From positions 1-23,646 of the IMG/VR virus record IMGVR_UViG_3300032291_000247: 23,646 bases of DNA; one strand, written 5' to 3'. Position numbers and translations under genes: made by a program. Below are positions 2,372-19,337 of the stretch, one piece after another (positions within the stretch are counted from its first letter, which is position 1; each line of letters begins with the position of its first letter). Below the pieces are notes generated by a model, which saw only the letters and a program-made list of their open reading frames with translations, ran no database searches and was not told the DNA's origin. The stretch is from a virus.

Positions 2372-2425
2372 TGAATGCGGGTTTCCTAGTGCGCAAAACG
2401 TAAAAAACTGATATAGGGGCGGGTT

Positions 2426-3079: not shown

Positions 3080-4767
3080 TGTCCACGTCATTTACACAAG
3101 TTTTTGGTGGTACGACGATATACCCCTCGGACGTATCCTACCTCGCACTCGCGCTAACTGGGAACACCACACTTCAGTGGCCGCTTGAGGCCACCACCGG
3201 CAACAACATCGTCGCGCGCATCATCGACGTCACACCGACGGGCGCGTTCACCATAACAATGCCGGACGCGACCGAAGTGGGTGTCGGCCAGACGATCCTG
3301 TTCAATAACCTCGGGCCGAGCACCATCAACGTCAACAGCGCGTCTGGTGCCGCAATTCTGACCATAGAGGCGGGCCAGCAGTGGCAGTGCTACCTCATCA
3401 ACAACACGACTGTTGGCGGCACGTGGCGCACGTTCCGCTACGGCGCTGCCGTGGCGCAGGCTCAAGCCGCCGCGCTGGCTGGCGCTGGCTTAATCGCGGA
3501 TGGGTCAACACTCGCCCAGAACTACGACGTCGCTGACTTCTCTGTTACGCCGTACACCTCAACGACCGCTGACCGCGCTAGGATTTTTGTTTGGACCGGC
3601 GGCCTCGGCACATTTAACCTGCCGACTGCTGTCTCCGCTGGCGACGGTTGGTTCGTACAGATCCGTAACGGAGGCCAAGGTGACCTGACCATCGACCCGT
3701 CTGGCACCGAGCTTATCAACGCGGCGTCCACGCTGCGCTTGCAGCCGGGCGACAGCGCCGTGATCGTAAGCGACGGCGTGCAGTGGTACACCATCGGCCT
3801 CGGCCAGCAGGCGGTCTTCGCCTTCGACTACACGACCATCGCCGTCACTGGCGGCACGTACACGCTCGCTGGCTCTGAGCTGAACCGCATCGCGTACAAG
3901 TTCACAGGCACACTGGCCTCCAACGCCAACATCGTCGTGCCCGCAACGGTGCAGCAATACTGGGTCAACAACGCCACGACCGGCGCGTTCACGCTTGGCG
4001 TCAAGACCGCCAGCGGCACAGCCACTTTGGTCACTCAGGGCGCAACGGCCATCCTGTACTGCGATGGCACGGAAATCATATCGGCAACCACCTCGGCGGC
4101 CTTCGCGGGCGTCCTACCTGTAACACAGGGCGGGACAGGTGCGACTACCGCGTCAGGCGCGCGTACCAACCTCGGCGCAACGGGTATCGGCTCGGCGCTG
4201 TTTACCGCCGCGACTGCGGCGAGTGCTCGGGGCACTATAACCGCCGCAGCCTCTGGCGCGAACTCCGACATCACGTCGATCACTGGCCTCACAACGGCGT
4301 TGACTGTCGCGCAAGGCGGCACAGGCGCGACGACGGCAGGCGGTGCGTTGACTAACCTCGGCGCGGCAGCCGCTGGCGCGAACACCGACATCACTGCCCT
4401 CGACCAAGACGTGACGATCACGGCCACTGGTACGATAGCGGCGGGCACACTCGGCTATCGCGGTCTGCCACAGAACAGCCAGACCGGTGCGTACACGCTG
4501 GCGTTGTCTGATGCGGGCAAGCAGGTTTCCAACACGACTGGCGGCTTTGTCATTCCGGCTAATGGTTCGGTAGCCTTCCCCATCGGGACAGCGGTCGCCC
4601 TCTTCAACAACAGCGGCAGCAGCCAAACGGTGTCCATCACGACAGATACGCTACGTCAGGCAGGGACCGCGAACACGGGGACGCGCACTCTCGCGCAATA
4701 CGGCCTAGCAACGTGCGTTAAAGTTGCCTCTACTACATGGGTAATCAGCGGCGCGGGTCTCAGCTAA
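3079..4767 (+). CDS. Tail fibre / receptor-binding-type structural protein
   Basis: Long Gly/Thr/Ala-rich beta protein of 562 residues. Two copies of QGGTGATTA (350-358 and 412-420), each followed by a TNLGA segment and an AGAN[ST]DIT-type segment, are the classic repeats of phage tail fibres and side-tail fibres. Around them lie four similar beta modules (about 22-121, 150-241, 255-337 and 470-560), each running from a YTL- or FNLP-like strand through a V.NN or IRN turn to a Trp-containing end. The start is set by a perfect AAGGAGG at 3068-3074, and the ATG overlaps the adaptor stop by 1 nt. The position after the adaptor suggests a virion fibre or appendage. Receptor recognition is inferred, and the host target is unknown. 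Confidence 0.75.
   Translation: MSTSFTQVFGGTTIYPSDVSYLALALTGNTTLQWPLEATTGNNIVARIIDVTPTGAFTITMPDATEVGVGQTILFNNLGPSTINVNSASGAAILTIEAGQQWQCYLINNTTVGGTWRTFRYGAAVAQAQAAALAGAGLIADGSTLAQNYDVADFSVTPYTSTTADRARIFVWTGGLGTFNLPTAVSAGDGWFVQIRNGGQGDLTIDPSGTELINAASTLRLQPGDSAVIVSDGVQWYTIGLGQQAVFAFDYTTIAVTGGTYTLAGSELNRIAYKFTGTLASNANIVVPATVQQYWVNNATTGAFTLGVKTASGTATLVTQGATAILYCDGTEIISATTSAAFAGVLPVTQGGTGATTASGARTNLGATGIGSALFTAATAASARGTITAAASGANSDITSITGLTTALTVAQGGTGATTAGGALTNLGAAAAGANTDITALDQDVTITATGTIAAGTLGYRGLPQNSQTGAYTLALSDAGKQVSNTTGGFVIPANGSVAFPIGTAVALFNNSGSSQTVSITTDTLRQAGTANTGTRTLAQYGLATCVKVASTTWVISGAGLS
4126..4395 (+). repeat. Tail-fibre QGGTG repeat, two copies
   Basis: Within the fibre gene, the segment beginning at 4126 and the one beginning at 4312 both encode QGGTGATTA, then a [AR]TNLGA segment, then ANxDIT. 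They are protein-level repeats with diverged third codon positions, so they are old structural repeats and not recent DNA duplications. Confidence 0.75.
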
Positions 4768-5171
4768 TGACTGGGATTATATGCGCTCTGGCTGGAAGCG
4801 GCGGCGGCTCCGAATACATTGGCGAAGCAACGGTAACCGTCGGGTTCCTATCACAAGGCAGTTTCTCCAGCTACGGTAAGGGCGGCGGCGGCCAAGGTAG
4901 CATTGCCCCTGCAACATGGGCAAATAGCGGCTTGACTGTCGATACACTTAAAGACGTTTATAACTCTGGTGTGCCAGCGTGGTTAGATTTCACGGTTATT
5001 GGAAGCGCGCCTAATTCTGGTTGGGAAACACTGACTGTCGGGGGAACCACGATAAACCGCGTTGACGGCTCGTATACTAACAATGGGTCAACGACGACAT
5101 GGATATTTAACGGCGCGCCCACCGTGTTCGGTACAACTGTTGGTGATACGAGGACAGTCGTATGGGGATAG
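4767..5171 (+). CDS. Small Gly-rich protein of the tail-fibre locus, function unknown
   Basis: I take the ATG at 4767, which overlaps the fibre stop by 1 nt, over an in-frame ATG at 4737 that would overlap the fibre gene by 31 nt. The product is 134 residues: a hydrophobic start (MTGIICALAGSGGG), a Gly/Ser-rich middle (YGKGGGGQGS) and a beta-rich C-terminus ending in TVGDTRTVVWG. No catalytic motif is visible. Small Gly-rich proteins after fibre genes are common in podoviruses, where they may be minor fibre components or chaperones, but no function can be assigned. The base composition is visibly more AT-rich than the flanking fibre and nozzle genes, consistent with an exchangeable locus. Confidence 0.65.
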   Translation: MTGIICALAGSGGGSEYIGEATVTVGFLSQGSFSSYGKGGGGQGSIAPATWANSGLTVDTLKDVYNSGVPAWLDFTVIGSAPNSGWETLTVGGTTINRVDGSYTNNGSTTTWIFNGAPTVFGTTVGDTRTVVWG

Positions 5172-5338
5172 CAATCTTCTACCCAGCAAACGAAGCTGAA
5201 TGGTACGCCAAGGGTACGCTTGAGGGCGGCACCTACTTCGAAGTGCCTGCTGTGTTTAATCCGGATGGCACTTGCGATACAGCGGCTACCGACGCTAAAG
5301 TGCAGCAGTTAATCTTTGCCTTGAGTGTGAAAAGCTAA
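5162..5338 (+). CDS. 58-residue protein between fibre and nozzle genes
   Basis: A short reading frame begins at ATG 5162, overlaps the previous gene by 10 nt, and its TAA at 5336-5338 overlaps the nozzle ATG by 1 nt. This exact tiling of an otherwise empty gap is the main argument that it is real. The product begins MGIAIFYPANEAEWYAKG, contains YFEVPAVFNPDG and ends in ALSVKS. I recognise no family, signal peptide or membrane segment. Given its position it may assist the fibre or tail. Like the gene before it, it is less GC-rich than its neighbours. Confidence 0.6.
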   Translation: MGIAIFYPANEAEWYAKGTLEGGTYFEVPAVFNPDGTCDTAATDAKVQQLIFALSVKS

Positions 5339-7113
5339 TGCCTGAACAAATCGTACAGATACGCTCCGCCCCCGGCATCAAGCGCGACGGCACCAAGTTC
5401 GAGGGCGACCAGTACGTCGACGGCCAGTGGGTCCGCTTCCAGCGTGGGTTGCCGCGTAAGATCGGCGGCTACCGCTCGATCAACAAGTTCCTGCGCGGCC
5501 TGCCGCGTGCGCTGCACGAGTATACGCAGGATCTGCTGACATACGTCCACGCAGGCTCGTCCGACCGCCTTGAGCGCTTCTTCATCGACGCCACGTACAA
5601 CACGAGCGTCATCACCGACCGCACACCCTCGTCGGGCTTCACCACAGCCGACGCAAACATGTGGCAGTTCGCCACGGCGTACGACACGACGAACGGCAAC
5701 CAGATCGTCGCGCAAGTCGCGCCGAACCTGAACTGCATATGCAACAGCGACGGCGGCGCGCTCTTCGTCGGCAACCTCCTTGGCACGTCTGTTCTGACGC
5801 AAGTCACCACGGTGCCCGCAAACTTCAGCGTCACTGGCGGCGTGGTCACACTGCCGCCGTACACATTCGCCTTCGGCAACGACGGCTACGCGGCGTGGTC
5901 CGTGCCTAACGACCCCGCCGACTTCACCGGCTCCGGCGCGGGCAATGCGTACATCACCGGTCAAAAGATCGTCAAGGGAATGCCACTGCGTGGCGGCCCC
6001 GGAAACAGCCCGTCGGGACTGTTTTGGTCGGCGGACAGCCTCATTCGAGGCACGTATGTCGGCGGCACGGCGGTGTTCCAGTTCGACACGATCAGTGCGC
6101 AGTCGTCAATCTTGGCAGCCAACAGCGTCATCGAGTATGACGGCATCTTCTACTGGATCGGCACCGACCGCTTCTTAATGTTCAACGGCGTCGTGCGCGA
6201 AGTCGAGAACAACCTGAACATCAACTTCTTCTTCGACAACCTGAACTATGCGCAGCGCCAGAAGGTGTTCGCGTACAAGGTTCCGCGCTTCGGCGAGATA
6301 TGGTGGTGCTTCCCGTTCGGCGACAGCATCGAGCCGAACCACGCCGTCATCTACAACGTGCGTGAGAATACGTGGTACGACACCGAGCTGCCCAATGGCG
6401 GTCGCGGTGCGGGCCTCTTCCCTGCTGTGTTCAGCAAGCCGCTCCTGTCCGGCGTCGAGCCGCAGGAGGCTCAAGCAGTTAGCGTCGCCATCAACGCGGC
6501 AGGAACCGGCTACACCGTAGGCAACACCCTCGACGTTGTGGGCGGTCTCGGCCAGATTGACGCGGAGCTGACGGTGACCACCGTCAACGGCTCCGGCGGT
6601 ATTACTGGCGTCACCATCAGCAACGCGGGTCAGTATGACGAAATCCCAGCCAACCCAGTAAGCGTGACTGGAGGCTCGGGCAGCGCGGCCACGTTCAACC
6701 TGACATTCGACAACCCGTACAAGTTCTGGGTTCACGAGGTCGGCACAGATGAGATCGACGGCCTGACGCTCAACCCGATACAGTCGTATTTCGAGACGGC
6801 TGACCTGTCGCTGCCCGTCACGTCGGGCATCAACAAGTCCATGCAGGCCTTGATGATTGAACCAGACTTCGTGCAGAGCGGCGACATGACTGTGCAGGTT
6901 ATGGGCCGAGCCAACGCCCGTGCGCCTGAAGTGAACGGCATCATCATGACGTTTGTGGAAGACCCAGAGACGCCGCAGGAGCAGGTCGTCTTCCTCAAGA
7001 CACAGCGCCGCGAGCTGCGCTTCCGCTTCGAGAGCAACACCCTCGGCGGCAACTATCAGATGGGCCTCGTGCTTGCGCACGTCCAGCCCGGCGACGGGAC
7101 GACACTGGGATGA
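5338..7113 (+). CDS. Tail nozzle / P22 gp10-like tail hub protein
   Basis: A 591-residue beta-rich protein following the adaptor and fibre genes. The N-terminus (VQIRSAPGIKRDGTKFEGD, then QWVRFQRGLPRKIGGY) is typical of podovirus nozzle or packaged-DNA-stabilising proteins that close the tail tube below the adaptor. Repeated short blade-like stretches (FYWIGTDRFLMFNG, WWCFPFG, AVIYNVRENTWYDTE) suggest a beta-propeller. Residues about 378-458 form a Gly-rich insert (GTGYTVGNTLDVVGG to GSAATFNLTF), after which the nozzle pattern resumes with YKFWVHEVGTDEIDG and SYFETADL. It overlaps its neighbours by 1 nt upstream and 4 nt downstream. The assignment rests on remembered family patterns and gene order. 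Confidence 0.72.
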   Translation: MPEQIVQIRSAPGIKRDGTKFEGDQYVDGQWVRFQRGLPRKIGGYRSINKFLRGLPRALHEYTQDLLTYVHAGSSDRLERFFIDATYNTSVITDRTPSSGFTTADANMWQFATAYDTTNGNQIVAQVAPNLNCICNSDGGALFVGNLLGTSVLTQVTTVPANFSVTGGVVTLPPYTFAFGNDGYAAWSVPNDPADFTGSGAGNAYITGQKIVKGMPLRGGPGNSPSGLFWSADSLIRGTYVGGTAVFQFDTISAQSSILAANSVIEYDGIFYWIGTDRFLMFNGVVREVENNLNINFFFDNLNYAQRQKVFAYKVPRFGEIWWCFPFGDSIEPNHAVIYNVRENTWYDTELPNGGRGAGLFPAVFSKPLLSGVEPQEAQAVSVAINAAGTGYTVGNTLDVVGGLGQIDAELTVTTVNGSGGITGVTISNAGQYDEIPANPVSVTGGSGSAATFNLTFDNPYKFWVHEVGTDEIDGLTLNPIQSYFETADLSLPVTSGINKSMQALMIEPDFVQSGDMTVQVMGRANARAPEVNGIIMTFVEDPETPQEQVVFLKTQRRELRFRFESNTLGGNYQMGLVLAHVQPGDGTTLG

Positions 7114-7346
7114 TCGACCCTCGTGGAATGACTTGGCAAGACTGGGCCTGTTCGGTTATACTGTCCGTCAACGACGCGTGGGCATTCGGCACACCTCCCG
7201 CAGAGGCCGAGTGGCAAGGCTGGGCGATAGGGCTGTTGCGTGCCTCCCCATTTACGCAGCAAATTATTCCCGACCCATACCAGTTCTCGGATTGGCGTGA
7301 GTGGGGAATGCGTGTATATCCAATGCTCGAAGGTACAAGCTCATGA
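7110..7346 (+). CDS. 78-residue tail-locus protein, function unknown
   Basis: The ATG overlaps the nozzle stop as ATGA and its own stop overlaps the next gene as ATGA, so it is embedded in the translationally coupled string. The product is Trp-rich (WQDWACS, WQGWAIG, FSDWREWGMRVYPML) with no membrane segment or catalytic motif. Similar short Trp-rich proteins with a W..W motif occur after nozzle genes in related podoviruses, but I know of no defined role. A minor tail or assembly protein is the simplest guess. Confidence 0.65.
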   Translation: MIDPRGMTWQDWACSVILSVNDAWAFGTPPAEAEWQGWAIGLLRASPFTQQIIPDPYQFSDWREWGMRVYPMLEGTSS

Positions 7347-9715
7347 ACTACATCCCCGGCTTCAGCAACTATCTGGAAACGTCCATGCCGCGCTACGCGA
7401 AGGGCGGCCCTGCGCGGTTCAACGGGGAAGACATTTATGGCGGTGCCGCAGTCATGGACACGCCCCGTCAGGCGGCGGTCGCGCCGACGACGCAAGCTGC
7501 TGCGTCTGCGGCGGCCCCAGAAACTGAAGCTCAGGAACGCGCGCGACTTACAGCTTACCTTCCCGCTGCACTTTTGGGCGGCGCAAACCCGAATGATTTC
7601 GACATGGGGTTCCTGCGCCAAATGGCGAAGAACGCCGACCGGTACTATTGGGACCAAAAAGAAGCCGCCCATACGAAGGCGAACCCCCGTGTTAGTTACG
7701 CGACGGCGGACCCCGCCGAGTACTACAAGGCTTTCGGCACGGTGCCTATCTCCTTTACCGGGACTTCAGGATACATGGACAAGGGTGTTAAAGGCCCGTC
7801 TATCGACTATCTGACACCCGAAGCTGGCGCGACTTACTCGCTGTACAGCCCAAAAACGGGACAACTTATTGGCACCGGCACTGGGGCTGAAGGCCTGCTG
7901 GCGTTGGCCAAACAAGCCAACGACATGAACGAAAGTCAAGGCCGTAAGGCCGACTTCCAACTCGTGAAGACGGGTGCCGGTTCTACCACCCCAGAGGTTT
8001 TAGGCACCAACTTATACAACAGCGACCGCACGGCGCTGGGCAATGTTATGAGTGTGGTCGGTAAGGCACTGCCCCTCGCGACGATGTTCATACCGGGCTT
8101 GAACGTCCTCAGCGGTATCGCCGTTGGCGCGGGCCTCGGCGGCGTAGGCGCGCAGTTGCAGGGTAAGAACGCCCTTAAAGGCGCGCTCATGGGAGGTTTG
8201 TCTTCGGCTGGCGGTCAAGTGCTTGGGCCAGCACTCGAGGGTGGAGGCGCTCTTGGCGCTAATCTGGCCCCAAGGCTCGCCACCTCAATCGGCACGGGCA
8301 TCGGCTCGACCGCAGGTGGTTTGGTCACAGGCCAGAGCCTGAAGAACTCTCTCCTTGGGGGTGTCGCTTCTGGCGCGCTTAGTTACATGTCACCCGACAT
8401 AACTAAAGGTCTTAAAGATCTTGGCATAGTTCCGGGCGCGAATGTTAATACCAACACTAGCGGCAGCGCCCCCAGCGGTGGTGACATCGTGGTTAGCGCA
8501 ACCCCCGCAGTCACCCCAACTAACCTAAACACATCTTTCGGTAATTCGCAGAATAAGATCCAACAGATGGTAAAACCAAAGACTGAAACCCCGTACGACG
8601 GCCTCACCGTCACCGGCGGCAAGTTCGGTACTGTTGGTTTTGGTGGCGACCTGTCCGGTGCCGACCGGTTCGGCACGCCCGGAAGCGACACCTCCGCGTT
8701 TAAGAAGATGTACGAAGAGCCTTACGACCCGAATGAAATCCTCGTTAAGGCTACTACGACGACTACCCCCGTTTCCAGTGGTCTATCGCCCGACGTGCAG
8801 GCTGGAATAGCTGAATTTGAGAAGAACCCCATCATCTCTGAAGGTTCTAAGAGGGTTACCCCCGTTTCCGCTCCGGTAACAGGCCCTCTTACAACAACAG
8901 CTCCAGCGGTTCTGCCGAAGGACATTGTCGTAGACGCCACTACGAAGACTACCCCCGTTTCCAGCGGTTTCACCCTGTCGTCGGATACGCTTTCTGAGAT
9001 TGACAAACTGTCTGAAGCGGAAAGAAAAGCTAAGGAAGAAGAAGCCAAGAAGAAGCTCGAAGTCGAAGACTACCTGCGCCTCGCAAGTCTTGCCACCGGC
9101 CTAGTCGGCAACCTCACCGGCGGCGGTAAAGACGGCTCAGGCTCGTCGGGCACATACATCCCCGGCGGCGTTGGCAGCGGCCGCCTGAACCCAATCTTCT
9201 CGGCCCAACTGCCCGCAGCGGGCGGTCTCGGCACTGTCGGCGCGACCCGCACGGCGCGTCAGTTGGGCGACGTAGACTGGCTTACTTACGGCATGCGGCC
9301 TGAGCTTAAATTCTTCGACTACGCGACGTCGCCAGCCAACCCCGCGCCTGTCACAACACCCGTGCCCGGCAACCCCGCTGGCCCAATTATGCAACAGCGC
9401 GATCCTATGGTTATGGCCGAGGGCGGCGCACTCGCCGCAAAGCGTGGTGGCCGGTCACAACGCACTGAATTTGCAGTCAACGGCCCCGGCACTGGCCGCA
9501 GCGATGACATCCCTGCGGTGCTGTCCGACGGTGAATATGTCATCGACGCCGAGACTGTCGCCCTATTGGGTGACGGATCGAGCAAGGCTGGCGCGAAGAA
9601 GCTGGACGACCTGCGGGTCAAAGTTCGTAAACACAAGGGTCAGAAGTTGGCAAAGGGCCGTTTTAGTGCTAATGCCAAGAAGCCCGAAGCATATCTGTCT
9701 GGAGGACGTATTTAA
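7343..9715 (+). CDS. Large virion-associated protein, probable internal or ejection protein
   Basis: I take the ATG at 7343 (ATGA overlap, GAAGG upstream), giving 790 residues; an in-frame ATG at 7301 adds 14 residues. The N-terminus has MPRYAKGG (15-22). Residues about 235-350 form a long Gly/Ala/Leu-rich hydrophobic stretch (LPLATMFIPGLNVLSGIAVG and similar), suitable for membrane insertion. A Thr/Pro-rich region with repeats (about 380-545) follows, then a charged helix (EAERKAKEEEAKKKLEVEDY, about 557-576). A compact C-terminal domain after MAEGG contains GTGRSDDIPAVLSDGEYVID and EAYLSGGR, a motif I recall from many environmental phage proteins. It heads a run of internal-protein genes. 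Ejection through the tail is inference; no lytic transglycosylase motif is visible. Confidence 0.65.
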   Translation: MNYIPGFSNYLETSMPRYAKGGPARFNGEDIYGGAAVMDTPRQAAVAPTTQAAASAAAPETEAQERARLTAYLPAALLGGANPNDFDMGFLRQMAKNADRYYWDQKEAAHTKANPRVSYATADPAEYYKAFGTVPISFTGTSGYMDKGVKGPSIDYLTPEAGATYSLYSPKTGQLIGTGTGAEGLLALAKQANDMNESQGRKADFQLVKTGAGSTTPEVLGTNLYNSDRTALGNVMSVVGKALPLATMFIPGLNVLSGIAVGAGLGGVGAQLQGKNALKGALMGGLSSAGGQVLGPALEGGGALGANLAPRLATSIGTGIGSTAGGLVTGQSLKNSLLGGVASGALSYMSPDITKGLKDLGIVPGANVNTNTSGSAPSGGDIVVSATPAVTPTNLNTSFGNSQNKIQQMVKPKTETPYDGLTVTGGKFGTVGFGGDLSGADRFGTPGSDTSAFKKMYEEPYDPNEILVKATTTTTPVSSGLSPDVQAGIAEFEKNPIISEGSKRVTPVSAPVTGPLTTTAPAVLPKDIVVDATTKTTPVSSGFTLSSDTLSEIDKLSEAERKAKEEEAKKKLEVEDYLRLASLATGLVGNLTGGGKDGSGSSGTYIPGGVGSGRLNPIFSAQLPAAGGLGTVGATRTARQLGDVDWLTYGMRPELKFFDYATSPANPAPVTTPVPGNPAGPIMQQRDPMVMAEGGALAAKRGGRSQRTEFAVNGPGTGRSDDIPAVLSDGEYVIDAETVALLGDGSSKAGAKKLDDLRVKVRKHKGQKLAKGRFSANAKKPEAYLSGGRI
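8751..8968 (+). repeat. Intragenic TTPVSSG-coding repeats
   Basis: The DNA at 8751-8782 and 8938-8968 is nearly identical (ACTACCCCCGTTTCCAG core) and encodes KATTTTTPVSSG and DATTKTTPVSSG. A shorter related copy is at 8856-8869 (TTACCCCCGTTTCC). Each full copy follows an acidic/aliphatic lead ([DE]I[LV]V[KD]AT), and a further diverged lead (DIVVSATPAVTP) lies near residue 381. These look like linker repeats within the large virion protein. Confidence 0.7.
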
Positions 9716-10773
9716 TGGCTGTCAGTTCATTCATGGCCGAAGGGGCAACAATCCCGCAAGGCTCGGCCCTCACGGACGTAACCAAACAGACGGTGATGCC
9801 TGAGTGGTACACTAACTATGCGATGGATATGCTTTCGGGGCAGAAGGCTTTAGCCAGCCGTCCGTACCAAACCGCGCCCATGCCACGCATTGCGGGCTTC
9901 ACGCCGACGCAAGAGAAGTCCTTCGGCATGACCGAGACTGCGGCCGGTGCATACCAGCCGATGCTCGACCAAGCCACGCAGGCCGCGCAGGCAGCCGCAA
10001 ACGCGCCGGGCGCGCTCAACGTAGCGCAGCCGTACTTGACGCAGGCGGGCCAGACGTCCGTGTCGAACATCGGCCAGTACATGGACCCGTACAACGAGGC
10101 CGTCACCAAACGCATCGCCGAGTTGGGCACACGCAACCTCACCGAAAACATTATGCCTCAGATCGAGGGACGCTACATCCAAGCCGGTCAGCTCGGCTTC
10201 GGCGGACGCGGTGGCGCGGGCACGCCGTCGGGCATGATGACCGACACCTCACGCGCCATTCGCGACACCAGCGCCGACATCCTCGGCAAGCAGACCGAGG
10301 CGCTTCAGTCCGGCTACGCGCAGGCCGCAGGGCTTGCGGGCACCGACTTGGCGCGCTTTGGCAACCTTGCAGGCACGGCTGGCAATCTGGCGCAGGCACA
10401 ACAGCAACAGCAGCTCGCCGCCTCCGGCGCTCTGTCCTCACTCGGCGAGCAGGCGCAGACCCTCGGCCTCACCGGCGCGGGCGCACTGGGCAACGTCGGC
10501 GCGCTGCAACAGCAACAGGGTCAGAAGAACCTCGACGTGGCCTACGGCGACTTCCTGCGTCAGCAGGGCTACGAGCAGGAGCAGATCGACAACATGATGA
10601 AGACGTTCCAAGGCGTCGCCTCCGGTATCCCGACTGCGACACAAGAGTACGGCATCTCGCCGTCGAGCGCGGAGCAGAAATACCCAGCCAGCACGGCGTC
10701 GAATGTCGCCGCTGGTTTGTCTGGCGGGGCGGCTCTTATTAAGGAATTGAAGGACGCGGGCGTTTTCAAATGA
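9715..10773 (+). CDS. Probable virion internal protein, Gln/Ala/Gly-rich
   Basis: A 352-residue protein with a GGAGG site at 9701-9705 and a 1-nt overlap with the gene before. It begins MAVSSFMAEGATIPQG, has PYQTAPMPRIAGFTPTQEKS near residue 50, and a YMDPYNEAVTKRIAELGTRN segment followed by GQLGFGGRGGAG (about 122-170). YM.PY plus a Gly-rich FGG stretch is a pattern I recall from small DNA-ejection or internal proteins of podoviruses. Residues about 215-275 are Gln-rich (two QQQQ blocks) and probably helical, and a Gly/Ala-rich segment lies near the C-terminus. No enzyme motif is visible. Its position between two presumed internal proteins supports an injected role. Confidence 0.6.
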   Translation: MAVSSFMAEGATIPQGSALTDVTKQTVMPEWYTNYAMDMLSGQKALASRPYQTAPMPRIAGFTPTQEKSFGMTETAAGAYQPMLDQATQAAQAAANAPGALNVAQPYLTQAGQTSVSNIGQYMDPYNEAVTKRIAELGTRNLTENIMPQIEGRYIQAGQLGFGGRGGAGTPSGMMTDTSRAIRDTSADILGKQTEALQSGYAQAAGLAGTDLARFGNLAGTAGNLAQAQQQQQLAASGALSSLGEQAQTLGLTGAGALGNVGALQQQQGQKNLDVAYGDFLRQQGYEQEQIDNMMKTFQGVASGIPTATQEYGISPSSAEQKYPASTASNVAAGLSGGAALIKELKDAGVFK

Positions 10774-11525
10774 TTACGGTCGATCCGCCCCTCGCACCGT
10801 GGCAGATTGACCATATTCGTAAGATGCAAGAAGAATTGGGTTTGCCGCAAACGGCACCTGACACAGAGGAAGTTACGATGGACGAAGAACTGAACGGCCA
10901 ACCCCCCGCAGATACTGGCGATGTGGCAGGCGGATTGTCGGTGTACGGCGACGCTGATGTCAAGGCGGCTATGGATAAGGAGGCAACACTCGCGGGCGAG
11001 CGCGAGAAGTATTACGACAGGATTGCCAAGGCACTTGAAGAGAAGCGCTACGGCCCGTCGTTCAGCGAGCGCATGTTCCAACTGTCGGCGGCGTTTGCCG
11101 CACCAACAAGCACGCGCGGCTTCAGCGGCGTCATGGGCAACATCATGCCCGTCTTGGCGGCACAGCAGAAGGCTCGGCGCGAGGGCGAGATTAGCCGCCG
11201 TGAGGCGCTTGAGCAGTTGGAGGCAAACCGCCTCACCAACAAGTTGGGCCTCGCTAGGCAGGACACGCAGACGAAGATCGCCCTTGCGAAGTTGGCGAAG
11301 CAGCCCCCTGTTAGGGGCGTTGCTGTCGGCGACACGTTGCGTAACCCGTATACCAATGAGGTTATGGGTCCAGAGTACAACCGCGTGCCGATGCCTGACT
11401 ACTACAAAGCTCTTGAAGCCGCCCCGACACCGGAAAACTTACAAGCCGCAGTGGCGTATTATCCGACGTTTGCGGTACAACTCAAGGCAGCTTATGACCG
11501 TGGCTTAAAGAATAAAGGACGTTAA
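10770..11525 (+). CDS. Helical virion-locus protein, probable small ejection protein
   Basis: The ATG overlaps the previous stop as ATGA. The product is 251 residues: an acidic N-terminus (about 20-60), then a long charged helix (about 65-95, DKEATLAGEREKYYDRIAKA), then GPSFSERMFQLSAAFAAPTS (about 94-113) and a second amphipathic helix (AAQQKARREGEISRREALEQ, about 129-148). The GPS.SE....AAF..PT pattern recurs in uncharacterised proteins beside podovirus internal genes. No catalytic residues or membrane segments are evident. The stop is immediately followed by the next ATG. Confidence 0.6.
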   Translation: MITVDPPLAPWQIDHIRKMQEELGLPQTAPDTEEVTMDEELNGQPPADTGDVAGGLSVYGDADVKAAMDKEATLAGEREKYYDRIAKALEEKRYGPSFSERMFQLSAAFAAPTSTRGFSGVMGNIMPVLAAQQKARREGEISRREALEQLEANRLTNKLGLARQDTQTKIALAKLAKQPPVRGVAVGDTLRNPYTNEVMGPEYNRVPMPDYYKALEAAPTPENLQAAVAYYPTFAVQLKAAYDRGLKNKGR

Positions 11526-14500
11526 ATGCAAACGCTCAATCCTGCGGACTTTTTAGACACGCAAGCATCACCAAAGCAATCGAAGGCGTCGGCTGAGGCG
11601 CAAACCTCTGGCGCTGAAGCTAGGTATGCGGATATGGCGAAGGGTGCTGAGGCTCGGAAGAAGCAAGCCGAAGCCGACATCGTCAACGCAACGTCAGTAG
11701 ACGCAATCCGAGAGGCCCGCGCAAGGGCAGACAAAGCTGAAGTTGACCTTCAGGCTGCTCGTGAGGCACTCGCGAAGGGTCCAGCCAAGAGCGTTACTGA
11801 AATTGAGTTAGATGCAAAAGCTAAGGGCGCAAAATCGCGCGCGGCAGTCGTGCGCGCGCAGATGCTAAATAACATCCAACTGTACAAGAACGAGATTAAA
11901 GGCCAACCGGCCTCGCGCCTGTTTGGTTACACGGAAATGTTCGACAAACCTAGCTTTGGTGGCGTAGTCCCAGCTATTCCCGCTTACGAAAATTTCACCA
12001 AAGCCAACGCCGCTATCCTCCCGCTGATACGCCCTCTCGTCGCGCAGTCGTCGAAGGAAGGCGACAGCGACAAGGAAATGGCGGTTTTCATGGCCTATAT
12101 TCCCGAAGCTGGGGACAGCGACCGCACAATCGAAACCAAGTACGCCATGCTTGATACCCTTATCGCCGGTATGGCCGAGGGGCGTCCCGCGTCCGAAATC
12201 GTGGCGATGGGCGTCAAGCCGCGCAACGTAGATGACGTAGAAATGTCGATCCGCCGCGAACTGGCACCGAACGAAATTAAAGGCTATCGCATCCCCGCCA
12301 CAACTGAAGGCAAAATCCGTGCGCTGTATGCTGACAAGCAACTTACGCCAGAGGCGTATGCCGATCTCGTTGTCGCAGGAGCCATAGAGGCAGGCCTAAA
12401 ACCCGACGAGGCGTTTAAGGCCGACGCGTTGGCCAAGGGCGCAGAAGCCGTATCCAATATGGAGAAAGGCATTCAGTGGGGCGGCTTTAGTTATGGCGAC
12501 GTAGACAAGGCAGCTAAAGAAGGTCTCGCTTGGCCAGAAGCCGCGTTGTCTGGCGTGATCAACCTCCCGTATAGCGCCCTTGAGACGTTCGCAGAGACCG
12601 GAAAGGCGCTAACCGTTGGTTTACCCGAGACGGTACAAACCATAGGAAAACTGGCAGGCGACGCCATCGGCGTGACCGACGGCGAAACTTTGCAAGCCCT
12701 CGGTGAGTTTTACACCAACCGGTACCTCACGGAACAAGGCTTCAAGGAGGCAATCGCGCAAAACCCTTTTGAGGTTTTGTTGGACGCAAGCACGGTTAGC
12801 GGTGCCTTGGGCAAGGTCGGCAAACTTGAGGCTGCGACAAAACTAAGCAACGCGCTAGACCCAGTTGCGCTAGCCACTCGTGTGGCAAAGTTTCCGTTTC
12901 AAACAGCGGCGGGTGCTGGGCGTTTGGCGCGCGAAGGTGTCACAGAGGCTCTCGGTGTCACCACCGGCGCAGGCGGCGACGCACTGCGTGAGGCGGCGAA
13001 GGCTGGTCGCGAAGGCGGCGAAGGTGCCAAAACTTTCCTCGAAAACATGCGCGGTGGCGGCAGCATGGAAGACGTGCTGAACCAAGCCCGCGAGGCTGTG
13101 GGCAATATGCGCAAAAATGCGTCAGAAGCGTATCGCACTGGTATGCTTGATGTCAGCAAGGACAAGAGCGTTGTTGACTTCACGCCCATCTATGATCGGT
13201 TGAGCAAGTTGCGCGAGCGTGCGTACATCGGCGATAAAGTCAAAAACCCGTCGGCCGCAGCCGTCTACGAGAAGGCCAAAAGCATCGTTGACGACTGGAA
13301 CACCAGCGACCCCGCAGTGTTTCATACGCCGGAAGGCATGGACGGCCTCAAGCAGCGTCTGGGCGACTTGTCCAACGATTTTGCAACGGAAAACAATCGC
13401 CGCGCCGCGTCTATAGCATCTGGTGTGTACGATGAGGTGCGCAAGTCGATCAATAATCAGGTGCCTAGCTATGCCAAGGTCATGGAAGGTTACGAAACCG
13501 CGACCAAGACCATGCGCGACATCGAGAACACCCTTTCGCTGAAGCCGGGCGCACAGATTGACACTTCATTGCGTAAGCTCCAGTCGATCATGCGTAACAA
13601 CGCCAACACCAACTATGGTCGGCGTGTTGAACTGGGCCGCACACTTGAGGAGGCTGGCGCTGAAGGACTGTTCCCGTCTCTGGCGGGCCAGCAGTTGTCC
13701 ACGAAAACACCTCGCGGCCTCGGGCAGGTAACCGCTGGCGGTAGCATATTGGGCGCTATCCCAACTGGGGGCGCATCGCTGTTTGGCTTGCCTTTAGCGT
13801 CGCCCCGTCTGATGGGTGAAACCGCGTTCAAAGCAGGCCAAGCCACAGGCGCAGCCGAGAGGGCGGTAACACCCTTCATGCAAAGCATGGCGGGTCGCAC
13901 GGCACCGTACAGCGACGCCATATTGGGGCTTGTTGAAAAGTACAACGCCAACCGACTTCCTATTCAGGGCGGCATGGCGGCCATTCAGGGTCTCGAAGGC
14001 GCGCAAATGCGGCCTGAAGAACAGGTTAACGTCACGGCCACCGAGGGTTACCCTGCGCAGGCTATGGCGGATCTTGCGGCGCGTTACGAGATGACACCTG
14101 TCGCCGCAGAGCCAGAGGCCGCAGCGGTGCCTGTGGAAGGCACCGTCTTAGTGGACGGCCGCCCAACGGAGATACGCGGGGACGGACGCCGCTATTTCAT
14201 AGGCACCAACGAGCTTGCCGAGGCGGATAACGACCCGCTCTTGGACCGCAGCGATCCCGCACTCGGCATGTACCGTGGCGGCACCGTGCAGGCGTTCAAG
14301 AATGGTGGCGACAAGGGCACGCCTAAGAAGCGGACAAGCTGGTACGACGACCTGACGATGGCGGTCAGCCGCCGCAGTAATGACCTTGTGGCAGCGGCCG
14401 CCGATCTGGCGGACAAATACGGCATATCACCGGCCAACGCCACCGCGTGGATCGCGCAGAATGTCGCTGGCTACTCGCCGCAACAGGCCGCACAGATCCG

Positions 14501-15011
14501 CCGCAACCTGAGCGGCGTGAGCAATCGTGCTATCGTCAATGCCGGTGCCGCGTCGAACGAGACCCGCTTCCGTAACGCTGGCGGTCGCGGCGCTCGCTCG
14601 GCCGACATGGTGACGTTGCCTGTTCGCATGAGCGACGTAGCCTACCGGGTTCAGGACATTCCACGCGCAGTCGTAAGCGAGACCCCTAAAGCGCTTCGGG
14701 CCGCAGGCAATTACATCACCAGCACCGCGCCGCAGACTATGCTCCGCGACGCGCAGCGCGCAGGTTCTGTCGCCATTAACGCAATCGCGGAGGATCCGTA
14801 TGGCGTGGCTTTTGATACAGCCTTGTATCCTGCGTTTCCGATAGCGGCCAGCGCGGGCGACTTCGCTGCGATGCGCGGCGGGGCGCGCGAGCTAAGTCCG
14901 TACGTGCGTGACGACGTTGAAGCCGCAGATGCCAAGCGTATGGTTGATGCGCTGTCGGTGCTGCCAATAAGCGGCGGGATGGCGGGTCGTCGCCTAACAA
15001 AGAAGCGCTAA
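11526..15011 (+). CDS. Giant internal virion (DNA-ejection) protein, 1161 residues
   Basis: The largest gene of the window; ATG at 11526 follows an AAAGGAC site with no gap to the gene before. The N-terminus is Ala/Lys/Glu-rich coiled coil (about 30-90). A segment around 400-455 (FKEAIAQNPFEVLLDASTVS, then LSNALDPVALATRV) matches a pattern I recall in very large phage proteins delivered with the genome. Residues about 735-760 are Gly/Ala-rich and hydrophobic. At 915-928 is MYRGGTVQAFKNGG, separating a C-terminal domain (about 930-1161) of mixed helices ending in a basic RRLTKKR tail. I find no transglycosylase or polymerase motif. Size and position parallel T7 gp16-like internal proteins, but homology is not shown. 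Confidence 0.65.
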   Translation: MQTLNPADFLDTQASPKQSKASAEAQTSGAEARYADMAKGAEARKKQAEADIVNATSVDAIREARARADKAEVDLQAAREALAKGPAKSVTEIELDAKAKGAKSRAAVVRAQMLNNIQLYKNEIKGQPASRLFGYTEMFDKPSFGGVVPAIPAYENFTKANAAILPLIRPLVAQSSKEGDSDKEMAVFMAYIPEAGDSDRTIETKYAMLDTLIAGMAEGRPASEIVAMGVKPRNVDDVEMSIRRELAPNEIKGYRIPATTEGKIRALYADKQLTPEAYADLVVAGAIEAGLKPDEAFKADALAKGAEAVSNMEKGIQWGGFSYGDVDKAAKEGLAWPEAALSGVINLPYSALETFAETGKALTVGLPETVQTIGKLAGDAIGVTDGETLQALGEFYTNRYLTEQGFKEAIAQNPFEVLLDASTVSGALGKVGKLEAATKLSNALDPVALATRVAKFPFQTAAGAGRLAREGVTEALGVTTGAGGDALREAAKAGREGGEGAKTFLENMRGGGSMEDVLNQAREAVGNMRKNASEAYRTGMLDVSKDKSVVDFTPIYDRLSKLRERAYIGDKVKNPSAAAVYEKAKSIVDDWNTSDPAVFHTPEGMDGLKQRLGDLSNDFATENNRRAASIASGVYDEVRKSINNQVPSYAKVMEGYETATKTMRDIENTLSLKPGAQIDTSLRKLQSIMRNNANTNYGRRVELGRTLEEAGAEGLFPSLAGQQLSTKTPRGLGQVTAGGSILGAIPTGGASLFGLPLASPRLMGETAFKAGQATGAAERAVTPFMQSMAGRTAPYSDAILGLVEKYNANRLPIQGGMAAIQGLEGAQMRPEEQVNVTATEGYPAQAMADLAARYEMTPVAAEPEAAAVPVEGTVLVDGRPTEIRGDGRRYFIGTNELAEADNDPLLDRSDPALGMYRGGTVQAFKNGGDKGTPKKRTSWYDDLTMAVSRRSNDLVAAAADLADKYGISPANATAWIAQNVAGYSPQQAAQIRRNLSGVSNRAIVNAGAASNETRFRNAGGRGARSADMVTLPVRMSDVAYRVQDIPRAVVSETPKALRAAGNYITSTAPQTMLRDAQRAGSVAINAIAEDPYGVAFDTALYPAFPIAASAGDFAAMRGGARELSPYVRDDVEAADAKRMVDALSVLPISGGMAGRRLTKKR

Positions 15012-15013
15012 CG

Positions 15014-16135
15014 ATGGGTATCCCGTCACGTTTCGCCGCCAAAGCTGCTGCCAAAGCTGCTGCCAAGGCTGCCGGTAAAGCTGCAAAACTGAAGGTTATC
15101 CCTAAACCAAAGGTGGAAACACCTCCGGCCAGACCGCGCGCGGTAACACGACCCGACGATAAGTTTCGGGGTGAAGGTACGCCTCAGATAACGGTTGTGA
15201 AGCCCAAAAAACCTTTTGTAGCCCGAAGCACAACTCAATCCCAGATCGACGACATGATAGCGTCTGGCTTAGTGCGCCCAAAAGAAGGCGGTTACGGCAA
15301 ACAGCAATCTCCGCAAATCTATTTTGGCGAAAGTGACGCCGCGCTGCCGACGGACGTGTTTAGCCGCCCACGGCCGGGTAAATTTGTACTTGTTGGGAAA
15401 AGCGAGAACCTTGCGGGCCGAGAAGGCCCAATCAGCCTCGATGACCTTGAGCATATATGGGAAGACGTAGACGGCGAGATTGTAGACATTCTACCCGACG
15501 TCCTACGCAAAAACCAAGAGTTTGTACCGACGCGCGCGCCGTCGTTAGACATGGGCACTGAGGCACGCATGGCGCGCGCCCGTGACATGGGCTTCGACGT
15601 AGACAACCCATTGTACGTTTCTACGTTAGGTGACGTTGCGGCCTTCAACCCGCGCGGCGAATTTCGCGGCCATAAGGGCATTTCCGGCATCAGCTTGACC
15701 GACAACCCCGAACTGGCCTCACGCTATTTGGACCGATACGGCGAGATCGACTATAAGGGCGAGCCTTTCAGCAAACAGATGATGAAGGTTCTGATACGAC
15801 CGGGCGAGATTGAAGGGTTCGACAATCCCATCCCTAGCCAATACACCCTCGGTGCGCCGCTGCCTGAAGGCTACGCGTGGCCTTCCGCGTTAGAAAACGT
15901 CGATACCGCTGTCTTCCCAGATGCCGTGCCACGGACAGGCGCTATCCGCCACCTCGAGCCGGGCACCCAAGGCGCTATCGAAGGTTTGGAGTACATCCTC
16001 CGCGACCCGACGCGGGTGCGCTCGTTTACCGCCGCCTTCGATCCTGAGTATTTTGACAGTCCAGATCTTATGAAAGCGCGTGGCGGCCTCGCCGTGAAGC
16101 CCCGTAAATATGCCGTCAAGAAATCAAGGAAGTAG
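15014..16135 (+). CDS. Putative ADP-ribosyltransferase-like protein with Ala/Lys-rich leader
   Basis: The gene begins 2 nt after the giant protein gene. Residues 1-27 (MGIPSRFAAKAAAKAAAKAA onward) form an amphipathic Ala/Lys helix nearly shared with the next gene. The C-terminal half resembles phage domains of the ART/PARP-like kind: RARDMGFDVDNPLYVST (188-204), AAF (209-211), GISLTDNPELASRYL (225-239) and VRSFTAAFDPEYFDSPDL (335-352). In the family as I know it, the first motif usually reads LYHGT; here it is LYVST, so the NAD-contacting His appears lost. The enzyme may be inactive, changed in substrate, or only distantly related. The protein ends with KARGGLAVK plus a basic tail. Injection with the genome is inferred from gene order. 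Confidence 0.5.
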   Translation: MGIPSRFAAKAAAKAAAKAAGKAAKLKVIPKPKVETPPARPRAVTRPDDKFRGEGTPQITVVKPKKPFVARSTTQSQIDDMIASGLVRPKEGGYGKQQSPQIYFGESDAALPTDVFSRPRPGKFVLVGKSENLAGREGPISLDDLEHIWEDVDGEIVDILPDVLRKNQEFVPTRAPSLDMGTEARMARARDMGFDVDNPLYVSTLGDVAAFNPRGEFRGHKGISGISLTDNPELASRYLDRYGEIDYKGEPFSKQMMKVLIRPGEIEGFDNPIPSQYTLGAPLPEGYAWPSALENVDTAVFPDAVPRTGAIRHLEPGTQGAIEGLEYILRDPTRVRSFTAAFDPEYFDSPDLMKARGGLAVKPRKYAVKKSRK

Positions 16136-16137
16136 CT

Positions 16138-17580
16138 ATGGGTATTGGGTCACGTTTCGCCGCTAAGGCCGCAGCCAAAGCAACAGCTAAAGCCGCGACC
16201 AAAGCGGAACGCGAAGCCGCCGAACGGGCCGCCGCTAAGGCTGCCGCTAAGGCCGCCGCTAAGGCCGCCGCTAAGGCGGAACGCGAAGCTGCCGCTAAGG
16301 CTGCCGCTAAGACAGATAAACCACTAGCGGTTAAAACACAGTCAGCGGCACCCGCGTACATAAAGACCGGGTCTGGTGCAAATCGTGATTTGGCTGCGGA
16401 TGTTTTCGCCGCTACCTCAAGCAAACAAAAAGGCGCACCTTCGTTTTCTGATTGGCGCGCGGCCAACGAGGATACCCTCGGAACCATGTTTGACTATGGG
16501 TCGCTTCGCAACGTCCCTGACGTTCCCCAGTTTCAGATTGAGCGGTCGGTTCCGGCGCAAGGGCCATCCGCTCGTATCGTTGACGCATTAGCGAACCCCG
16601 ATGTTGCGCGCGGCATCAATGAGACAGTTGAACGTGGCGCGGAGCGCGGTGGGTTGGAGTGGTACAACACCGACCCGTTGTACCGGCGTTTGGTTAGTTC
16701 TGTCGGTGAGACTAACGCGCCCGCAGAATACTCACGCCTTATGGATGTTGTTGCGGCCACCAGCCCCCGCGCGAAGGTGCAAGACAACATTCGCATGGCG
16801 TCTTACTACAATTATTTGCTAAAGAATGGCATCCCTATCCCCGACAAACCTGCGGCGGGTTACGGCTCTATCGCCCAAGGCAGCCACGTTAAACACGCGC
16901 GTAACATCGGCAATGAAGGCGGCTGGAACATCTTTGAAAATCCAAAGCCCGCGAGCTTCTCCAGCAACCTACAAGGCAACCAACAAGTCGCTACGATTGA
17001 TACGCACAATTTCCGTTTACCGGGGATTATCAGTCAAGACCCGCGCTTCCTCGCAACATCGTTCGACGAGTTGGTGAAGCCTGAGTTAAATGACCGCACA
17101 AAAATTATTGAGGATCTTGTCGCGCAGTACCCCAACATGCAAGGCGTGGACATAGATAGGTTCGTCTCCAGACTAGAAGGGCCGAAGCCTAAAGTTTCGT
17201 TCAGGCCGCAGGACTGGTTAAAGTCTGGGTCAATTTCGATGGAAGAAGCGGTTAATCGTCCGAACTTCTGGGCGTCGCAACCAAACGACAACGAGTACGG
17301 CTACTACGAGAGCTGGCAACAGGATCAAGCTAAAAAACTCGGCATGTCACCAGCGCAATATCAGGCGTCAATGTGGGTTGGCGGTGGCGAAGATACGGGC
17401 CTCGGCTCAGTCGCTGAACCGTTCCTAAAGACGTTTGAGGCCCGCATCAAGTACACCGCTGACCGCCTTGGCGTTTCCCCTGATGTTGTCATGGAGAAAA
17501 TGCTCAAGGGTGAGATGCCTTTGATGGCGCAGGGCGGTTCGGTTGACGCGCAGGAGCTGGCGGAGAAATACGCCGTGTAA
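16138..17580 (+). CDS. Phage protein with Ala/Lys leader and unidentified catalytic-looking domain
   Basis: The ATG at 16138 is preceded by AAGGA at 16126-16130 and lies 2 nt after the previous stop. Residues 1-58 are a long AAAK-type helix with a repeated KAEREAA block. The C-terminal domain (about 105-465) has well-formed motifs: GGLEWYNTDPLYRRL (171-185), DVVAATSPRAKVQDN (203-217), ATIDTHNFRLPG (285-296), KKLGMSPAQYQASMWVGGGE (399-418) and FEARIKYTADRLGVSP (433-448). WY, TSP...N and IDTH patterns recur in uncharacterised phage proteins I have seen next to internal virion genes. Conserved Asp/His residues hint at an enzyme, but no function can be named. It ends with PLMAQGGSVDA. It is the last gene of the forward unit, before a hairpin. 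Confidence 0.6.
   Translation: MGIGSRFAAKAAAKATAKAATKAEREAAERAAAKAAAKAAAKAAAKAEREAAAKAAAKTDKPLAVKTQSAAPAYIKTGSGANRDLAADVFAATSSKQKGAPSFSDWRAANEDTLGTMFDYGSLRNVPDVPQFQIERSVPAQGPSARIVDALANPDVARGINETVERGAERGGLEWYNTDPLYRRLVSSVGETNAPAEYSRLMDVVAATSPRAKVQDNIRMASYYNYLLKNGIPIPDKPAAGYGSIAQGSHVKHARNIGNEGGWNIFENPKPASFSSNLQGNQQVATIDTHNFRLPGIISQDPRFLATSFDELVKPELNDRTKIIEDLVAQYPNMQGVDIDRFVSRLEGPKPKVSFRPQDWLKSGSISMEEAVNRPNFWASQPNDNEYGYYESWQQDQAKKLGMSPAQYQASMWVGGGEDTGLGSVAEPFLKTFEARIKYTADRLGVSPDVVMEKMLKGEMPLMAQGGSVDAQELAEKYAV
16228..16311 (+). repeat. 12-bp tandem repeat coding AAAK
   Basis: Units of GC[CT]GCCGCTAAG occur at 16228, 16240, 16252 and 16264, then again at 16288 and 16300 after a GCGGAACGCGAA unit at 16276. 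A longer copy pair, AAAGCGGAACGCGAAG at 16201 and its near-identical form at 16273, is offset by 72 nt. This looks like slippage or unequal duplication within the leader helix. A shorter run of related units is in the neighbouring gene at about 15044-15079. Confidence 0.85.
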
Positions 17581-17640: not shown

Positions 17641-17973
17641 TCATCGTCCGTCTCCCTTCGCTTCGGCCAGCAACGCGGCATAGGCAATGTTGTCCTCGGC
17701 GCTGTCGGCGTGGTACTCGCTGCGCGTGAACAGGCGCACCAGCTTGACTTGCTGCATGAACATCCAACCCTCGCTCTCGGTCAGGTCGCGGCCGGTGATG
17801 GCGTTGAAGGCCGTCACGATCTTGCCCATCGAACGCTCGCCCTCTGGCTCGTCATAGGTCGCGGATCGATCGTGCATGTGCGCCGCAGCGCGGCCCAACA
17901 GTTCGGCGGCCTTTGGCTCTGGCACCTTAGCCATTTCGTTAAGTTCTTCGTTTATCTCTTTGATGATTTTCAT
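17641..17973 (-). CDS. DUF6378-like phage protein
   Basis: A 110-residue protein and the last gene of the leftward replication unit. Its ATG overlaps the helicase stop as ATGA, with AAGGAAAAG upstream. The core DRSATYDEPEGERSMGKIV (35-53), AFNAITGRDLTESEGW (55-70) and ADSAEDNIAYAALLAEA (89-105) match a small-protein family common in phages, which I believe is DUF6378. The spacing of acidic residues resembles all-alpha nucleotide pyrophosphohydrolase (MazG-like) folds, but this is only an impression and no activity is claimed. It is co-transcribed with the helicase and OB-like protein genes. Confidence 0.7.
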   Translation of the reverse strand: MKIIKEINEELNEMAKVPEPKAAELLGRAAAHMHDRSATYDEPEGERSMGKIVTAFNAITGRDLTESEGWMFMQQVKLVRLFTRSEYHADSAEDNIAYAALLAEAKGDGR

Positions 17974-19337
17974 TTTCTTTTCCTTCGTTTCATTGCCTCT
18001 AACAGCACCTCTTGAATGCTGCGCTTACTTGACAGGCGCTCCATGACGACCTCGTCCACGGTGTCGCGCGCCAGTATCGGGTAAATCAGCACAGGGCGGT
18101 CGTGCCCCGCCTGCTTCTGCCGCATGGGGCCAATGCGCTCGATGATCTGCATGTGCTCTTCTAAATTCCAGTTAACGCCGAAGAACGCCAATATGTTCCC
18201 GCCGTCGGCCAAGTTCAGCCCGTGCCCCGCCGACGCAGGGTGAGCGAATAGTAGCGGCACCCGCCCGGCGTTCCAATCCCTGATCGTATCAGGGTTAGCG
18301 TCCAGCACCCTGCCTTGACGGAAACGGATTTGTAGACGTTGAAGGTCGTGCTTGAAATTGTAGGCCACCAAGACGGGCGCGCCGTTAGCCTCCTCGATAA
18401 TGCTTTCCAGTGCGTCCAGCTTGGCATTATGGATGTCCTCCCACTTCCCTTCCTCGCCCACATACATCGCGCCGTTGGCAATCTGCAACAGCTTCTGCGT
18501 CCGCACGGCGGCGTTGGCCGCCTCGACCTCGTTCTCCGCGAGCTGCGCGAACATCTCCGTCTCCATCGACACGTACAGCTTGCGCACCGACGGGATGAAG
18601 TCGGTGTAGACTGGCACCACGTTCGGCTCTTCGACGGACAGCGCACGGACAGTCAGGCAGACGTCGCGCAGCTTCTCCTCGACCTCACGCTGCGTGTGCT
18701 CGTAAGGCACGAGGCTGTAGCCGTCGTACCCCTTGCGGAACCACCGCTGCTCGAAGGCGCTGAATGTGCGGCCCAGACGCTCGCCCTTGTCCAGAAACCA
18801 TATCTGCCCCCACAGATCCTTTATGCCGTTGGGCGCAGGCGTCCCTGTGAGGCCGATAAAGCGGCTCCCCTCTCCGTGGACCACCTGACCCAGCATTCGT
18901 GCCCTAGAGCCTCCCTGACGCAGCCTGTAGGACTTCAGGCGGGTGAACTCGTCCGCGACCACAGTCTTGAACGGCCACGCGTCGCCCAGCTCCCTGCGGA
19001 GCCACCCGATGTTGTCGTAATTCATGCAGTAGATGTCGGCGTCTTTGGCCACCGCACGTTCGCGCTGCTTCGGCGTGCCTGTTATAACACTGACGCGCAG
19101 GTGCGACAGGTGGTCCCACTTCTGGACCTCCTCGGGCCACGTTGACTTCGCGACGCGTAAAGGGGCCAGCACGAGTACGGGGTAGATGTCGTCTATAACC
19201 GACATGTTGTCCAGCGCCGTGAGCGTGGTGACGGTCTTACCGCCACCCATCGGCATCCACAGCGCACAGCGCGGCACGTCGTACAGGAAGCGCATGGCGT
19301 CCTGCTGATAGTCGTGTGGTACGAAGGTACGTGTCAC
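17970..19337 (-). CDS. SNF2-family DEAD/DEAH-type helicase
   Basis: Predicted dsDNA translocase/ATPase of the phage SNF2 type (455 residues). Residues 7-15 form the Q-like start (PHDYQQDAM). Walker A is MGGGKTVTT (30-38), motif II is VVADEFTRLK (126-135), motif III is LTGTPAPNG (163-171), motif V is HPASAGHGLNL (366-376), and motif VI is QIIERIGPMRQKQ (397-409). Motif II reads DEFT where DEAH or DE[SA].. is usual, and motif VI has PM inserted where RI.RIGQ is usual; the catalytic Asp-Glu is kept. The start is GTG at 19337, overlapping the upstream stop as GTGA. In this cassette type it is found with PolA, VRR-NUC and DUF2815 genes. It probably acts in fork remodelling or recombination. Confidence 0.9.
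   Translation of the reverse strand: MTRTFVPHDYQQDAMRFLYDVPRCALWMPMGGGKTVTTLTALDNMSVIDDIYPVLVLAPLRVAKSTWPEEVQKWDHLSHLRVSVITGTPKQRERAVAKDADIYCMNYDNIGWLRRELGDAWPFKTVVADEFTRLKSYRLRQGGSRARMLGQVVHGEGSRFIGLTGTPAPNGIKDLWGQIWFLDKGERLGRTFSAFEQRWFRKGYDGYSLVPYEHTQREVEEKLRDVCLTVRALSVEEPNVVPVYTDFIPSVRKLYVSMETEMFAQLAENEVEAANAAVRTQKLLQIANGAMYVGEEGKWEDIHNAKLDALESIIEEANGAPVLVAYNFKHDLQRLQIRFRQGRVLDANPDTIRDWNAGRVPLLFAHPASAGHGLNLADGGNILAFFGVNWNLEEHMQIIERIGPMRQKQAGHDRPVLIYPILARDTVDEVVMERLSSKRSIQEVLLEAMKRRKRK

Follow-up and report, generated by a model that had tools for sequence, protein, structure and literature searches.

A leader shared by adjacent phage genes with unrelated payloads, and its recurrence among related phages

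Two adjacent genes with a common leader

The DNA analysed here, referred to as the window, is the 23,646-nucleotide IMG/VR virus record IMGVR_UViG_3300032291_000247, which probably comes from a short-tailed member of the tailed phages. A presumed ejection (internal virion) protein of 1161 residues (11526–15011, plus strand) is followed on the same strand by gene 1 (373 residues, 15014–16135) and gene 2 (480 residues, 16138–17580). The order and extents of these open reading frames are as originally predicted, with gaps of 2 nt on either side of gene 1. Both genes thus lie directly behind the ejection protein and are co-directional with the preceding virion genes. An SNF2-type helicase on the opposite strand (17970–19337, minus) forms the right-hand border of the locus and served as a search anchor. 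The 1161-residue protein has 63 relatives in IMG/VR, the closest at 45–79% identity, and profile searches gave it no Pfam or PHROG name. The 352-residue protein upstream of it matches the DNA ejection protein family phrog_4287 (E = 3e-6). Scans for sigma-70 promoters and terminators returned matches at chance level only.

Several other features of the window were recorded. An endolysin-like ORF (48–659) adjoins an Rz-like ORF (650–1160) in which a lipoprotein-like ORF (813–1160) is embedded in another frame; these were assigned by eye. A structural protein (5338–7113, phrog_3287) carries an insert at residues 379–440 with similarity both to domain I of the tail sheath protein Gp18 and to families of head decoration proteins. 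At the C-terminus (9470–9715) of an 804-residue protein, the stretch GPGTGxSDDIPAVLSDGEYVIDA matches tape measure families (phrog_6090, phrog_25241), in contrast to the short-tailed look of the phage. A long Ala-rich ORF on the minus strand (16116–16487) mirrors the Ala/Lys leader of gene 2 and is probably an artefact of composition.

Genes 1 and 2 begin with the same leader, MGI[PG]SRFAAKAAAKA. The copy in gene 1 is MGIPSRFAAKAAAKAAAKAAGKAAKLK (15014–15094, plus strand), predicted as a helix over residues 6–26 in a low-confidence AlphaFold model (ten-sequence alignment, pLDDT 36), and the copy in gene 2 is MGIGSRFAAKAAAKATAKAATKAEREA (16138–16218, plus strand), where the Ala/Lys/Glu helix extends to about residue 54–60. 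Fourteen of the first 15 residues and 37 of the first 44 nucleotides are identical between the genes. When the first 60 residues were shuffled 100,000 times with their composition preserved, no shuffle reached this match, the best agreeing at 9 of 15 positions versus 13 observed after the Met. Past the leader the proteins diverge completely, as had been claimed; BLASTP of gene 1 against gene 2 finds nothing (best E = 2.4). Neither protein has a Pfam hit at curated cut-offs, and the only NCBIfam match for either is to TolA, which comes from the A/K stretch and lies far below cut-off.

The part of gene 1 that had been called ART-like could be traced by homology. While gene 1 itself gives no direct Pfam hit, its second half is homologous to a relative's ART-PolyVal protein (29% over 213 columns, E = 1e-7), whose own Pfam ART-PolyVal match has E = 2e-6. 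The domain covers residues 176–345 (15539–16048, plus strand) and is probably degenerate at the catalytic His. The His of the YHGT motif is replaced in gene 1 (YVST), and for this reason the domain may be inactive. The core of gene 2 (residues 196–296; 16723–17025, plus strand) matches the profile of phrog_3842 (E = 9e-6) and is DUF7178-like; gene 2 has no Pfam DUF7178 match of its own, and one related payload (L131) matches both families. Gene 2 is modelled as all-helical, the core included (AlphaFold, pLDDT 71), with no meaningful PDB match by fold or by sequence, and a search of GTDB genomes yielded no relatives of it. With an ART domain that lacks the usual His and a fold unlike solved structures, no activity can be assigned to either gene.

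Leaders and payloads among related phages

A degenerate DNA pattern for MGI.SRFAAKAA occurs at eight places on five contigs among 2.9 million IMG/VR viral contigs. All eight are gene starts at this one locus, flanked by the ejection protein on one side and the opposite-strand SNF2-type helicase on the other, and a looser pattern added a single contig (L012). The original prediction asked whether this leader is also attached to other C-terminal domains encoded here, and across the matching phages at least six payloads stand behind it: two ART types, DUF7178-like, PcfJ-like, GNAT-like and one unnamed. For instance, in L007 and L008 it begins a ParB-like/ART protein as well as an unnamed protein of 427–429 residues, and in L081 a GNAT-like and a PcfJ-like payload. 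L080 has four consecutive leader genes, the first (VGVASRF) and fourth (MGVARF) of which were identified by reading the contig.

We then sampled helicase-anchored loci, ejection-protein loci and payload loci, a set that comprises 75 cassette genes from 54 genomes. These fall into 16 leader types when clustered by their first 32 residues and into 14 payload types when clustered by the C-terminal region. Recognised payloads include ART-PolyVal (E down to 2e-18), PBECR5 (best E = 3e-15), PcfJ and DUF7178. Each window gene has one recognisable payload, and gene 1 of L078 combines a ParB-like domain with an ART. Neighbouring genes with different payloads have the same leader in 22 of 25 pairs, whereas the same payload in different genomes has the same leader in 12.8% of 290 pairs; these counts are approximate, since the set includes near-duplicate contigs of a single phage type and a rule was used to place the ORF starts. 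When genes were permuted among the 17 multi-gene genomes, none of 2000 permutations reached the observed mean, and with the Ala/Lys type removed none of 5000 did so. The test of leader sharing needs genomes with several such genes, and leaders 2, 4 and 5 occur in single-gene genomes. One payload sits behind up to seven leader types. These data show that the leader depends on the phage rather than on the payload.

Leaders also change often. At least 29 changes of leader type were counted on a helicase tree of 50 genomes, and the window and L083 have different leaders despite helicases that are 97% identical. Such frequent exchange of payloads and leaders, together with tandem genes 2 nt apart, would fit shared 5′ ends that have no function in the protein and were either left behind by tandem duplication or serve as arms for recombination when payloads are exchanged. 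The substitution pattern points the other way. Over 12 leader pairs of several types (11 within one genome, one between genomes), pS is 0.53 and pN is 0.094, whereas recent homogenisation would leave pS low. Synonymous sites have diverged and non-synonymous sites have been kept, which indicates that the leader is selected as protein, and copies this old with the protein held speak against a duplication of recent date and against a sequence kept just for recombination. In addition, co-resident leaders match even where the payload between them has been swapped. We therefore regard duplication or recombination as very unlikely to account for the shared leaders. The suggestion that a targeting-type N-terminus stands on different payloads gains support, as the leader recurs on other domains and its protein sequence is kept while the DNA diverges.

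A second alternative is that the leader is simply an Ala/Lys helical spacer, or a basic arm that binds the packaged genome, with no specific receptor. The leader of the window (leader 0) is (AAAK)n-like, has a net charge of about +5, is modelled as a helix and gives the weak TolA-like match described above, all of which fit this idea. On the other hand, leaders 1, 3, 6 and 7 are near-neutral (−0.8 to +1.2) and not repetitive, yet they are shared in the same way. Moreover, every leader-0 gene of the closest phages retains the first ten residues (GI.SRFAAK), whereas the length or make-up of the A/K run is variable. A spacer or DNA-binding arm is thus unlikely to be the whole function of the leader, and a DNA-binding A/K tail is ruled out as a general explanation, given that non-basic leaders behave alike. 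For the same reason the leader is not generic low-complexity sequence, a possibility that the original prediction had raised against itself.

The arrangement is also seen in two cultured Roseobacter phages, whose host is FZCC0083. The leader MANPVKxxxxxLGxxVID precedes unrelated payloads between the portal and head genes of CRP-902 (2291–7542, four genes) and CRP-901 (7806–11514, two genes). In CRP-902, MANP[VI]KxxxxxxG begins gp72, gp68, gp66 and gp65, four genes whose remainders are unrelated. In CRP-901, gp68 is a gene-2-like protein between portal and head genes, and gp66 is a PBECR5 nuclease whose first 20 residues are partly common with those of gp68. Among 50,697 phage records, strong matches to this leader were confined to CRP-901 and CRP-902; a leader-1 peptide search in phage isolates gave no convincing match. 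The available part of the paper describing CRP-901 and CRP-902 (PMC10149686) makes no mention of virion proteomics. In these cultured phages the leader rule is directly testable.

C-terminal tails and ejection-protein modules

These relatives in culture and the many leader types were absent from the first reading of the window, as were two further features: a tail at the C-terminus that stays constant, and an association of leaders with modules of the ejection protein. Gene 1 ends in a constant element, ARGGLAVKPRKYAVKKSRK (residues 355–373; 16076–16132, plus strand), that is common to the leader genes of L007, L079, L080 and L081 and slightly changed in the leader-1 genes of L119 and L120. 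The C-terminal end of gene 2 is AQGGSVDAQELAEKYAV, and its tail MAQGGSVDAQELAEKYAV (17524–17577, plus strand) is kept in gene 2 homologues. Of 58 cassette proteins, 46 have a GG tail, as do 9 of 15 ejection proteins, versus 9 of 104 replication-side ORFs. The motif [LFYM]AV[KRN] occurs 75 times in cassette proteins, compared to 5.9 ± 2.4 in shuffles, an excess that is descriptive because the motif was picked after reading the sequences. Most of its sites, many of them preceded by GG, fall either within the linker that follows the leader or within the final 45 residues, and ejection and replication proteins show little excess.

The C-terminal ∼223 residues of the window's ejection protein (939–1161; 14340–15008, plus strand) form a module, termed A, delimited by sequence matches and HMM. 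In L012 this module is a separate gene (12265–13011, 51%). Its second half is also found at the N-terminus of leader-2 and leader-4 payload proteins (31–35%, E∼1e-5; HMM E down to 2e-9), which indicates an exchange of modules between the ejection protein and the cargo. Module A accompanies leader 0 in all six genomes with data (counting L012, with its separate gene), and leader 1 goes with a different module, B, at the C-terminus of the ejection protein in 12 of 12 genomes. Fisher P values are 6.5e-7 for leader 0 and module A (5 genomes on the tree) and 2.4e-6 for leader 1 and module B (12 genomes); with the few tree-independent pairs the associations hold in 4/4 and 4–5/6 (P = 0.06–0.125). 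Physical linkage could contribute to the association. Module B, which is of the FGDE helical type, occurs twice in the ejection proteins of L105, L107, L131 and L140, near residue 150–400 and at the C-terminus, and is a stand-alone small gene in other phages.

Another possibility is that the leader targets a membrane, a pole or a partner enzyme in the producing cell, or aids translation, and that these proteins are not virion components. Many leaders are predicted amphipathic helices, as this would allow, and a virion location is itself deduced. Against it, the genes follow virion genes in one direction of transcription, their payload types are those of polyvalent proteins, described as virion-delivered (PMC5512222), and the C-terminal module of the ejection protein has been exchanged with payload N-termini. 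We consider targeting within the producing cell quite unlikely.

A probable cargo locus, and comparison with known systems

We think it likely that the locus is an exchangeable cargo cassette and that the leader is a phage-specific packaging and ejection tag on early effectors. From the position behind the ejection protein, the polyvalent payload types and the modules exchanged with the ejection protein, we infer delivery in the virion. The leader would act as an address tag specific to the phage, assisted by the short C-terminal tail, and would bring unrelated proteins into the particle. Docking to the assembly of ejection proteins is the most likely route, and the module exchange makes it the most economical model. 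The cargo would then enter the host alongside the DNA and serve early in infection as effectors or in counter-defence. More tentatively, the leaders may be mutually exclusive address codes, one per phage for all of its cargo, read by the cognate ejection-protein module (A for leader 0, B for leader 1) with a second C-terminal signal, [LFYM]AV[KRN] after GG. If so, a cargo gene would be usable only once the resident leader is attached, and loading and ejection in small phages would work as plug and socket.

In dozens of related aquatic phages, then, unrelated effector-type proteins stand behind a leader owned by the phage. Such repetition with many tags and cargos suggests a plug-in system for particle loading and injection. 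It also offers a way to recognise from sequence those virion-delivered effectors whose function is unknown, namely to look behind the leader, and the leaders are candidate tags for loading proteins into small-phage particles. We found no earlier description of this arrangement in the literature searched, in which subscription journals were thinly covered.

Parts of the arrangement have counterparts elsewhere. MuF polymorphic toxins (PMC5576092) likewise join a constant N-terminal part to a variable C-terminal payload and are linked to packaging genes. However, they belong to temperate phages, and no integrase was seen in the window and no MuF domain in its genes or the relatives scanned; the leader here is about 15–110 residues long and itself varies between phages. 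In phage SPN3US, the head proteins gp53 and gp54 have identical first 15 residues within a propeptide (PMC5694885), but these are paralogues cut by prohead protease.

Polyvalent proteins, which carry ART-PolyVal and PBECR-type domains, are encoded near virion genes, and their packaging and injection have been predicted (Iyer et al. 2017, PMC5512222). The payloads described here include domains of that repertoire and are also encoded among virion genes. Polyvalent proteins, however, combine many domains in one polypeptide, whereas here the payloads appear to be spread over separate genes, each with the same leader, and the available text of that account has no short interchangeable leader.

For phage P1 DarB, 30 N-terminal residues suffice to package a reporter (PMC9024508). 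In both cases the signal, or putative signal, is N-terminal, with ∼30 residues in DarB; DarB is a large virion-delivered protein and its signal was studied on that one protein, whereas here two to four neighbouring genes of a phage have the same leader. The internal proteins Ip1–3 of phage T4 are homologous to one another solely in an N-terminal leader, which directs packaging (PMC12373910, PMC3012670). Searches of 11 near-full-length relatives found no prohead protease of the S78 or ClpP type, although diverged proteases could escape detection and the S77 search was run without a positive control; cleavage of the leader as in T4 is consequently not supported. T4 and the phages described here are unrelated, and the latter have many leader families, one per phage, along with a constant C-terminal tail, polyvalent-type payloads and an association with ejection-protein modules. 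We do not claim membership of the T4 type; the likeness appears to be one of architecture. As with T4 Ip1–Ip3 and their capsid-targeting sequence (CTS), a short leader stands on otherwise unrelated proteins at exchangeable loci, with many payloads across relatives. The T4 and P1 leaders send proteins into capsids, and the arrangement described here bears on how broadly such a device is used among phages and how new effectors come to enter it.
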